Assembly: GCF_036864975.1 (NCBI RefSeq)
Contig: NZ_CP104311.1
Span: 1,280,001-1,344,000 of the forward strand
Direction of reading: 5' to 3'
Length of the DNA: 64,000 bases
Source: Methylococcus capsulatus
GTDB taxonomy: Bacteria; Pseudomonadota; Gammaproteobacteria; Methylococcales; Methylococcaceae
A program made the position numbers and the translations under genes. Each line of letters opens with the position of its first letter. The first letter of the stretch is position 1. Shown here piece after piece: positions 49,410 through 51,917 of the stretch. Below the pieces are notes generated by a model that saw only the letters and a program-made list of their open reading frames with translations, was not told the DNA's origin and did no database searches.

Positions 49410-49649
49410 TTAGACGACGCCGAAAATTTTGCTCGCAAGTTCCTTTTGGGCCAAGTGCTCGATCATCGTATCCACGAACGCCTCGATCCTGCGTTTTTCC
49501 TCCCGGCTAAGGGAAGGGTAGGCCCGCTTGTACGCCGCATTGAAGCCTTGGATGTCCTGGAGCGTATACGGTGCTCGGATACCGGCGATATAGCTCGAAA
49601 CGTCCTGAAATGCTTGTGAGAACAGAGGAATTGCCTGAACGGTATTCAT
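49410..49649 (-). CDS. Hypothetical protein (79 residues)
   Basis: Begins MNTVQAIPLFSQAFQDVSSY at ATG 49649. It is a soluble, mostly helical small protein (YKRAYPSLSREEKRRIEAFV, EHLAQKELASKIFG). The ribosome site is a weak AGGT. The composition looks coding, but no family is recognised. A Fur box lies 124 bases upstream and could influence it as well as the opposite-strand transcript. Confidence 0.5.
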   Translation of the reverse strand: MNTVQAIPLFSQAFQDVSSYIAGIRAPYTLQDIQGFNAAYKRAYPSLSREEKRRIEAFVDTMIEHLAQKELASKIFGVV

Positions 49650-49772: not shown

Positions 49773-49791
49773 GTTGTTGATAATCATTCTC
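49773..49791. promoter_or_regulatory. Fur box
   Basis: GTTGTTGATAATCATTCTC matches the 19-base Fur consensus GATAATGATAATCATTATC at 15 of 19 positions, including the full central GATAATCATT core. It lies in a promoter-sized gap before a non-coding stretch that ends in a strong terminator. This implies repression under iron-replete conditions; the regulator assignment follows from the motif. Confidence 0.65.
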
Positions 49792-49796
49792 GTATT

Positions 49797-49989
49797 GTGA
49801 TAGCCTGTTCCAGGTATCGGGGCTCGTCCGGAAGTTGTCCGGTGAGGCCATTGTTGGCAGCCCCTGGTCGGCGGTTCCGGCGTTATTTCCTTGCCGGAAC
49901 CTTGTTTCTCTGTGGCGTGTGTCCGGGAAGGGAATGCCCCTCTTAGGACCCGGCTGGCGAATGTCGCCGCCAGGGTCTTTTTTTTTTTT
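49797..49989 (+). ncRNA. Candidate Fur-regulated small RNA
   Basis: About 190 bases lie between the Fur box and a strong intrinsic terminator, with no supportable coding frame. Centrally, GGTTCCGGC (49873-49881) and GCCGGAACC (49893-49901) form a perfect nine-pair stem. Its 11-base loop GTTATTTCCTT contains TTTCCTT, complementary to Shine-Dalgarno-like AAGGAAA. An iron-controlled promoter, stem with anti-SD loop and a terminator with a long U-tail are the hallmarks of a base-pairing sRNA such as RyhB or PrrF. The transcription start is not fixed: no convincing -10 is seen. Confidence 0.5.
49947..49989 (+). terminator. Strong intrinsic terminator
   Basis: GACCCGGCTGGCG and CGCCGCCAGGGTC (49947-49977) form a GC-rich hairpin closed by GACCC/GGGTC, followed by 12 consecutive T at 49978-49989. 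It ends the candidate sRNA on the plus strand. Confidence 0.8.
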
Positions 49990-50040: not shown

Positions 50041-51471
50041 TCATCCTTTGATGCACACGATCGGTTCCAGCCGGGCGACCAGCCGCGCCAGCCCGGCCCG
50101 GTCGGAGGCCCGTACTACGGCGTGAACGTCTTTGTAGGCGCCTGGGGCTTCCTCGGCGACGCCTCGGTACGAAGGGCTACGTATGAGGATGCCGCGTTCG
50201 GCGAGCTGGTCGATCACCTGCCTCCCCTGCCAGGTCCGGGTGGCCTGGTGGCGGCTCATGCTGCGGCCGGCGCCGTGGCAGGCGGAGGCGAAGGACAGCA
50301 TCTCGCTCCGCGACGTGCCGGCCAGGATGTAGGAAGCCGTGCCCATGGAGCCGCCGATGAGCACGGGCTGGCCGGTTTCCGCGAATACCGCTGGCAACTC
50401 TGGATGGCCAGGCCCGAAGGCGCGGGTCGCGCCCTTGCGGTGGACGTAGAGGCGGCGACGCTCGCCGGCCACGAGGTGCTCCTCAAATTTGCAGGTGTTG
50501 TGGGAAACGTCGTACAGCAGCTCCAGCCGGGCTGTGGGCAGCACGCGGGCGAACACTTGTCGGGTGAGGTGGGTGAGTATCTGCCGGTTGGCAAGGGCAC
50601 AGTTGATGGCGGCGCGCATGGCGCCGAGGTAGTCCTGCCCGACTTCGGACTCGATCGGCGCGCAGGCCAGTTCGCGGTCGGGCAGGGCGATGCCGTATTG
50701 CTTGGCCGCACCCTGCATCAGGCGCAGGTATTCGGTGCCGATCTGGTGGCCCAGACCGCGCGAGCCGCAATGGATGCTGACGACCAGATCGCCCGCCGCG
50801 ATGCCGAAGGACTGGGCAGTCCCGGGGTCGAAGATCTCGGCCACTTCCTGAACTTCCAAGTAGTGATTGCCTGAGCCGAGGGTACCCATTTCCGCGCGCT
50901 GGCGTTCTTTCGCGCGGGCCGAGACGTTGTCCGGCCGGGCGCCTTCCATGCGACCGTGTTCCTCGATGCGGGTCAGGTCATGGGACTCGCCCCAGCCCTG
51001 TTCCACCGCCCATTGCGCGCCGCCTTTCAGCATGGCATCGAGGTTCTGGAGGTCCAGCCGGATCTTGCCGTGGCTGCCGAGCCCGACCGGGATATCGGCA
51101 TAGAGGGCGTCGGCCAGCTTGGTTTTAACCGGTTCGACGGCGGAACGCTTCAGGCCCGTGAGCAGGGTGCGTACACCGCAGGAAACGTCGAAGCCGACGC
51201 CGCCGGCCGAAACCACGCCGCCCGCGCCGGCATCGAAAGCCGCCACGCCGCCGATGGGAAAGCCATAACCCCAGTGAGCATCGGGCATCGCATAGCTGGC
51301 CTGAACGATGCCAGGCAGTCTAGCGACGTTGGCGGCCTGTTCCAGCACCTTGTCGTCCATGGCGCGGACCAGCGCCTCGTCGCCATACAAAATGACGGGG
51401 ACGCGCATTCCGGCTTCCGGATTCAGGCGCCAGCTGCAGGCGTCGAGCTGTTCGAGACGGTCGATATTCAT
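50041..51471 (-). CDS. rtcB: RNA-splicing ligase RtcB
   Basis: A 476-residue GTP- and Mn-dependent ligase that joins 2',3'-cyclic phosphate (or 3'-phosphate) and 5'-OH RNA ends. Conserved segments are VGFDVSCGVRTLLTG (metal cysteine), EMGTLGSGNHYLEVQ, VVSIHCGSRGLGHQIG and ASACHGAGRSMSRHQA, which holds the guanylylated histidine. ATG 51471 has GAGG upstream; the longer frame overlaps archease. It lies 14 bases after the archease gene. The sigma-54 regulator RtcR is not in this window. Confidence 0.96.
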   Translation of the reverse strand: MNIDRLEQLDACSWRLNPEAGMRVPVILYGDEALVRAMDDKVLEQAANVARLPGIVQASYAMPDAHWGYGFPIGGVAAFDAGAGGVVSAGGVGFDVSCGVRTLLTGLKRSAVEPVKTKLADALYADIPVGLGSHGKIRLDLQNLDAMLKGGAQWAVEQGWGESHDLTRIEEHGRMEGARPDNVSARAKERQRAEMGTLGSGNHYLEVQEVAEIFDPGTAQSFGIAAGDLVVSIHCGSRGLGHQIGTEYLRLMQGAAKQYGIALPDRELACAPIESEVGQDYLGAMRAAINCALANRQILTHLTRQVFARVLPTARLELLYDVSHNTCKFEEHLVAGERRRLYVHRKGATRAFGPGHPELPAVFAETGQPVLIGGSMGTASYILAGTSRSEMLSFASACHGAGRSMSRHQATRTWQGRQVIDQLAERGILIRSPSYRGVAEEAPGAYKDVHAVVRASDRAGLARLVARLEPIVCIKG

Positions 51472-51485
51472 GGCAATCCTCCCGG

Positions 51486-51917
51486 TTACACGTCCACCAC
51501 GCACTGCGCGCGCCACCCGCCGTCCGCTTCGCGTTCCACCTTGAGTTCGGTGTAGGTGGCGCCCTTGATTTCCACCGCGGGCCGATGGCGCTGCGGGTCC
51601 AGCGGCTCGCCCCAGGCGACACCTTTGAGTCGGCCACCGGCGATGTCGACCCGGAACCGCCCGAACACCATGTGTCGCACCGCCATTTCGTAGATGAGGG
51701 CGTTGAGCCAGTCCACCAACGCCAATTCCAGGTCGGCGGCCTCGCATTCCACTTCGACTTTTTCCAATGCCCGGATCGAAGTCGGGTCACAGATCACCGC
51801 CGACAGCGCCAGTGCCGCCTGTGCGAAGGCTTCTTCCGGCGTGGCGCCGAAGCCCCGCACGCCGATGTCGGCCATGTGCTCGAAAAGCTCCCAATGGGGG
51901 GAATCGGAGTCGATCAT
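51486..51917 (-). CDS. Archease
   Basis: A 143-residue archease family protein that speeds RtcB turnover and guanylylation. Family features are HWELFEHMADIGVRGFGATPEEAFAQ near the start (split as HMADIGVRGFG and PEEAFAQAA), a central DWLNALIYEMAVRHMVF and terminal conserved Asp. It is upstream of and co-directional with rtcB, the usual pairing. Confidence 0.93.
   Translation of the reverse strand: MIDSDSPHWELFEHMADIGVRGFGATPEEAFAQAALALSAVICDPTSIRALEKVEVECEAADLELALVDWLNALIYEMAVRHMVFGRFRVDIAGGRLKGVAWGEPLDPQRHRPAVEIKGATYTELKVEREADGGWRAQCVVDV

Follow-up and report, generated by a model that had tools for sequence, protein, structure and literature searches.

RyhB, PrrF and NrrF are stand-alone small RNAs ending in an intrinsic terminator, and in the case of NrrF a Fur box lies directly at the promoter. 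The R1 region of GcvB, an RNA that is not known to be iron-regulated, is a G/U-rich single-stranded seed. In methanotrophs, haem cytochromes, nitrogenase and soluble methane monooxygenase all require iron. Our literature search, covering titles, abstracts and few subscription papers, returned no iron-responsive small RNA in Methylococcus; genome-wide small RNA predictions such as PMC2527527 lie outside the comparison. RyhB and PrrF have their Fur box directly at the promoter, and BrrF of Burkholderia lacks such a box and is presumed to be co-expressed with hemP (PMC7377471). IsrR of Staphylococcus is described as a Fur-regulated RNA of one genus with pyrimidine-rich conserved segments proposed to meet Shine-Dalgarno sequences (PMC9410917).

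Here we describe a locus in a 64-kb stretch of a Methylococcus capsulatus genome (the window; its genome is referred to as G000 and five other Methylococcus genomes as G001 to G005, the G001 assembly being 87% complete). Judged from sequence, it very probably specifies a small RNA under Fur control. The wider explanation, namely a small RNA specific to Methylococcus that Fur represses and that acts in trans, we consider likely. With iron present, Fur bound to a box spanning the -35 hexamer and the spacer would block transcription. With iron absent, a structured RNA of about 175 nt would be made, ending at an intrinsic terminator. Its conserved pyrimidine and G/U-rich core, probably together with Hfq, would pair with ribosome-binding sites of iron-protein mRNAs and thereby lower their translation. 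Whether the RNA does act by such iron-sparing we put at even chances. A Fur-repressed RNA of about 175 nt is probable because the box sits in the promoter, the element is conserved and related boxes occur elsewhere in the genome, while no Rfam family matches.

When 4227 Rfam families were compared, none reached its gathering score in the interval, and the sole match in the window was a tRNA elsewhere. Up to an E value of 10, the interval gave seven sub-threshold matches, to unrelated families only and none to RyhB, PrrF or NrrF; in the five relatives, searched up to an E value of 1, only a sub-threshold anti-hemB match was obtained, in one of them. The sequence-only reading had not recognised the sequence as a described small RNA, and this holds, membership in RyhB, PrrF or NrrF included. 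The RNA is probably a new family by sequence and known in kind. Like RyhB, PrrF and NrrF it has a Fur box at the promoter, a predicted terminator and an hfq gene in the genome; unlike them it has no Rfam match, and acnB, sdhC and sodB are unsupported as its targets in G000. It is presumably longer than RyhB and PrrF. The core resembles GcvB R1 in being the same G/U-rich type of seed, yet no GcvB match was found here in Rfam. With BrrF, which is iron-responsive, the RNA shares restriction to a lineage, a conserved neighbour and extensive predicted pairing; unlike BrrF, it has a box in its own promoter (PMC7377471). With IsrR it shares restriction to a genus, a conserved pyrimidine-rich segment and predicted Fur control, whereas its core is U/C-rich and then G/U-rich and IsrR has C-runs. 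To our knowledge there is no sequence relation between the two. On paper the RNA would work as RyhB, PrrF, NrrF and IsrR do, and IsrR is a precedent for an unrelated genus-specific RNA with the same job.

The sequence-only reading had placed a Fur box matching 15 of 19 consensus positions just ahead of the transcript. Direct reading with rechecked coordinates bears this out: the box GTTGTTGATAATCATTCTC occupies 49773-49791 and contains GAKAATNATTMTC at 49779-49791. It is the only site in the window to reach 14/19; in 20 first-order Markov-shuffled versions, sites of at least 14/19 averaged 0.4 and none scored 15. As an exact 13-mer, GAKAATNATTMTC occurs once in the 3.43-Mb genome, at this box. 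All six genomes have the box at the same place, with scores of 15 (G000), 14 (G001), 13 (G003 and G004) and 12 (G002 and G005) out of 19; since 12/19 is modest by itself, the weight rests on the conserved position.

The promoter-like hexamers, picked by eye on the alignment, are TTGATA at 49777-49782 and TAGCCT at 49801-49806 on the plus strand, separated by a spacer of 18 in the window's genome and 17 in the other five. Across the six genomes the -35 reads TTGATA, TTGAGA or TTGCGA and the -10 reads TAnnnT in five and CAATAT in the sixth (by eye on the alignment); the -10 is weak relative to the sigma-70 consensus and was not listed by the promoter scan. In all six sequences the Fur-like box covers the -35 and the spacer. 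Because the start signal is built into a Fur site, the RNA is probably switched on in iron shortage. Both Fur (152 bits) and Hfq (102.8 bits) are encoded in the genome, and another member of the Fur family scores more weakly, at 39.7 bits.

Similar sites are found elsewhere in the genome. Allowing up to three mismatches, TGAKAATNATTMTCA has 117 genomic sites versus 27 for the reversed pattern, a contrast we take as indicative because the reversed control is not palindromic. Up to two mismatches leave twelve distinct sites, the box of the RNA included. Several of these closely precede feoA/feoB (feoA PF04023), bfd (PF04324) and iscS, and one precedes a di-haem enzyme gene (PF03150; the MbnH-family model stays below its cut-off). 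The remaining seven lie before a 77-aa ORF or a gene of the 2-hydroxyacid dehydrogenase family, between genes for multihaem cytochromes, or inside called ORFs. The layout of the RNA promoter recurs at bfd, whose promoter reads TTGAGA-17-TAGTCT and encloses the box TGAGAAACGTTCTCA.

A box between two transcription units might belong to either of them. A divergent 79-aa gene (49410-49649, minus strand), to which neither Pfam nor NCBIfam assigns a family, adjoins the RNA locus in each of the six Methylococcus genomes. About 50 bases upstream of the box there is a conserved block resembling a promoter, AGTCTATAC..TGAACAAT in plus-strand reading. Both facts would fit a box that serves this gene, the RNA being incidental. 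We regard this as very improbable, since the box shares bases with the -35 of the RNA itself and the body of the RNA is conserved. Moreover, a paralogue of the gene in G002 (L016) has a similar block AGTCTATAC by eye and no RNA beside it, and none of the 14 non-Methylococcus loci with orthologues has a box of at least 14/19 in the stretch read. The gene occurs in 29 of the 38 family genomes searched (three copies in G002), and T-runs are absent from the ten loci outside the genus that were examined, the stretch of L042 being 211 bases long.

For the proposed Fur-controlled RNA itself, a transcript of about 175 nt is predicted at 49813-49989 on the plus strand, its start placed 7 nt past the -10, give or take some nucleotides. 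Stem-loop I (49873-49901) has nine pairs, GGTTCCGGC/GCCGGAACC at 49873-49881/49893-49901, and the loop GTTATTTCCTT at 49882-49892. It is followed by the most conserved core, GTTTCTCTGTGGCGTGTGTCCGGGA (49904-49928), which alignments and searches single out as the proposed pairing segment. GCCCC at 49936-49940 is the predicted partner of a 5'-proximal GGG(G), closing a multiloop in the fold of five rows. The intrinsic terminator consists of a GC-rich hairpin (49948-49976) and 12 T (49978-49989). The perfect nine-pair stem and the hairpin with its T-run at the RNA end had both been claimed beforehand and are present as claimed.

The RNA strand has a predicted folding energy of -87.8 kcal/mol, whereas shuffles average -70.3 (z -4.03; 0 of 200 as good). 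We scored the six-row alignment on 29 pairs written from G003, comprising the closing GGG/CCC, stem I, hairpin II and the terminator. Standard pairs fill 94.3% of the cells. Changes on both sides were seen in six pairs versus 2.5 in shuffles, a value reached by none of 500, while the number of further pair types is ordinary (91 of 500 shuffles as high). Five of these six pairs belong to the terminator and one to hairpin II. In stem I, 97.9% of cells over eight counted pairs are standard and changes are one-sided only. In the RNAalifold consensus of the six rows, stem I and the terminator persist, the core takes a different fold, and hairpin II and the closing pairs are missing. Covariation thus gives good support to the terminator, weak support to stem I and hardly any to hairpin II. 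The terminator was also found by a consensus scan and is evident in five of the six genomes; in G001 no T-run terminator is seen by reading. Single-sequence folds vary between species, and the core is partly paired in the predicted folds.

A strong predicted structure with a conserved GGA-containing segment would also suit an RNA under Fur control that lacks mRNA targets and works by titrating a protein or a second RNA. This we hold to be scarcely probable; no Rfam family reaches gathering score here, Rfam's protein-binding RNAs included.

In the genomes searched, conservation of the trans-acting candidate was seen within the genus. DNA search of 21 genomes detected the element in five of the six Methylococcus genomes (its own included) and in none of the 15 others. 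The sixth, G001, has a diverged copy next to its orthologue of the 79-aa gene, and a covariance model built from the other five finds this copy independently (35.1 bits, E 1e-5). The same model, run on 311 genomes of the order under strict filters by which some weak matches are lost, gave 20 genomes with a match at E of at most 0.05. E values ran from 1.5e-30 to 1e-5 for the six Methylococcus and from 2.7e-5 to 0.027 for the 14 others. These 14 were rejected. They agree with the core at no more than 13 of 21 positions, as compared with 18-21 in the five Methylococcus RNAs checked, and 320 bases upstream of them hold no box above 13/19; in the seven alignments examined, the resemblance is one of generic stems and terminators. 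Under these filters no convincing copy was therefore seen in the 305 non-Methylococcus genomes. As to the claim of a Fur-controlled small RNA, sequence evidence is favourable: all six genomes of the genus keep the promoter-like hexamers, the box and the core, five of them keep the terminator, and related boxes precede feoAB, bfd and iscS.

Scanning genome contigs with the core pattern retrieved three stretches, two from Methylococcus (among the six) and one from Undibacterium. The Undibacterium match (L019, 3794-3821) sits inside a reading frame reading GLCGVCPGP and probably reflects no more than coinciding codons for the same CGVC motif. In five genomes, the exact complement ACACACMACAGA is found, besides the RNA genes, only in two copies of one repetitive coding region, whose appearance by eye suggests a prophage-like origin.

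That the core can be read as CGVC raises the question of coding. The interval had been called non-coding. Two plus-strand ORFs of the window lack a Pfam match, in line with this; on the other side, all six genomes have a frame that stays open over much of the RNA. It reads LAGTxFLCGVCxGKECPS in most of them (window 49835-49946) and runs through the core. The transcript might chiefly be an mRNA, controlled by Fur, that encodes a small peptide with Cys (..LAGTSFLCGVCLGKECPS), or serve as both mRNA and small RNA. In a BLOSUM pair test against G003 for the region from the GTG on, this frame reaches z of 3.0-3.6 and the others -0.97 to 0.06; over the whole transcript the three frames give 2.8, 1.5 and 0.4. 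We discarded this test, which gives fourfold weight to changes found in G003 alone. With each change counted once in five genomes, codon positions 1/2/3 of the core received 2, 5 and 7 changes (third positions 7 of 14, p 0.15) and those upstream 15, 8 and 7 of 30; with G001 added the figures are 8, 7 and 12 in the core and 21, 12 and 14 upstream. Start codons differ (GTG, TTG, ATG). So do the ends: the frame stops after FLCGVCLG in G002 and G004 and after CPS in G000, and has no stop before the terminator T-run in G003 and G005. The frame is open in six of six genomes, but its starts and stops are inconsistent; from the sequence we judge a conserved peptide unlikely, and the mRNA explanation as such is improbable.

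The preferred reading, an RNA that pairs with mRNAs, requires a pairing segment. The sequence-only reading had assigned this role to the loop of stem I as an anti-Shine-Dalgarno element. Fur control, by sequence, survives from that proposal, and the loop as key element is not supported. The most conserved segment is GTTTCTCTGTGGYGTGTGTCYGGGA, located 3' of stem I rather than in its loop, although G005 differs within it. Stem I is kept in Methylococcus, but its changes are one-sided only and its loop varies: the window has TTTCCTT, three relatives have TCTCCTT, G005 has TTTCCTG, and G001, the most distant relative, has GTGCTTTG.

An anti-Shine-Dalgarno seed in this loop could act on iron-protein mRNAs such as that of sodB. 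For target comparisons, 392 gene starts were collected from the window plus twenty 20-kb stretches, and RNAs of G002-G005 were ranked against these G000 starts as a stand-in background. Before sodB, CAAGGAGAC is an exact loop complement over 9 nt in G003 and G004 and over 8 nt in G002; only 1, 1 and 3 of 392 background genes, respectively, equal this, and by loop duplex energy 5, 8 and 2 (G003, G004, G002). Against this, the exact match shrinks to 5 nt in G000, where 121 of 392 genes pair equally with the loop, and to 4 nt in G005, where 102 do, so that the match to sodB is ordinary in the window's own genome. With accessibility taken into account, sodB is equalled by 119 (G000), 22 (G003), 42 (G005), 112 (G002) and 75 (G004) of 392 genes. 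We consider the loop unlikely to be the seed.

For the core, the top accessibility-scored partner in G000 (windows of at most 30 nt, 392 starts) is the ribosome-binding site of a 123-aa c-type cytochrome (PF13442, PF00034), whose nearest solved chain is XoxG (E 1.4e-10), TIGR03874 remaining below its cut-off. With 20-nt windows it ranks second. Scored with accessibility, it outranks all 392 in G004, and in G005 it is equalled by 9 of 392. The leader, ACCCGAAAACAGATAACAGAGAAACGCA-ATG, is predicted to pair with the core over about -28 to -1, at -25.8 (G000), -24.9 (G005) and -28.1 kcal/mol (G004), and the proposed RNA segment would include GTTTCTCTGT. The longest exact run of the leader with its own core is 10 nt in G000, 10 in G005 and 11 in G004; in G005 the run has moved by two bases and retained its length. 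The leader is identical in these three genomes, as is one other of the 13 starts on the same stretch for which both comparisons exist (the cytochrome counted).

None of 1331 other gene starts in five genomes, each compared with its own core, has at least 10 exact bases. Among 200 shuffled cores compared with the same 392 genes, however, 69 reach at least 10 and 15 at least 11; for this reason the match is not significant by length alone and the target is a hypothesis. Plain duplex energy without accessibility is equalled by 46 (G000), 53 (G005) and 29 (G004) of 392 genes. No orthologue of the cytochrome was found in 25 stretches of G002 and 12 of G003. It is the leading candidate, and we still regard it as doubtful that it is a true target.

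Weaker candidates are nifH and, in some species, sodB. GGAGAAACACC precedes the nifH start in G000, G003 and G005, and GGAGAAATACC in G002, giving a 7-8 bp match to the core segment; the match is weak, since 61 of 1331 gene starts have at least 7 exact bases. In the G004 stretches nifH was not found. The sodB product belongs to the Fe/Mn superoxide dismutase family, its best NCBIfam model being superoxide dismutase [Fe], below cut-off on a partial protein. The G005 leader of sodB reaches -29.6 kcal/mol with the core, matched by 1 of 392 starts, but with the accessibility cost included 42 of 392 do as well. In G000 with accessibility, acnB, sdhC and a second SOD are as unremarkable as sodB (54, 280 and 265 of 392 as good, next to its 119); the acnB start was not obtained in G004 and that of sdhC is apparently misplaced there. 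Another aconitase-family gene, which we take to be leuC, was dropped, its start being called in two of five genomes only, and badly.

The fullest version of the proposal would be a genus-specific iron-sparing RNA whose 28-nt core pairs with nearly all of the 28-nt cytochrome leader, perhaps also with nifH, on a transcript that may in addition encode a short Cys peptide. In this combined form we think it rather unlikely. If true, iron shortage would retune both electron transfer in methane oxidation and nitrogen fixation. A conserved, probably Fur-controlled RNA with one named candidate target would make post-transcriptional iron control in methanotrophs directly testable.

Further features were noted around the locus and elsewhere in the genome. 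Downstream of the RNA lies the convergent rtcB (50041-51555, minus strand; PF01139, 8.2e-172), and rtcB and archease genes together occupy 50041-51917 of the window on the minus strand. In four of six genomes (G000, G003, G004 and G005) the RNA has an RtcB match less than 1.5 kb away; in G002 the distance is about 9 kb, and none was seen on the short G001 contig. A Fur-like site with one mismatch, TGAGAATTGTTATCA, precedes a 77-aa ORF without Pfam family at position 301983 of G000 (L064). The Fur-like site TGATATGCATTCTCA is situated at 427919 (L066) between two cytochrome-domain genes, one of which has c7/c3 matches and both of which have MtrC-like matches, partly below cut-off.
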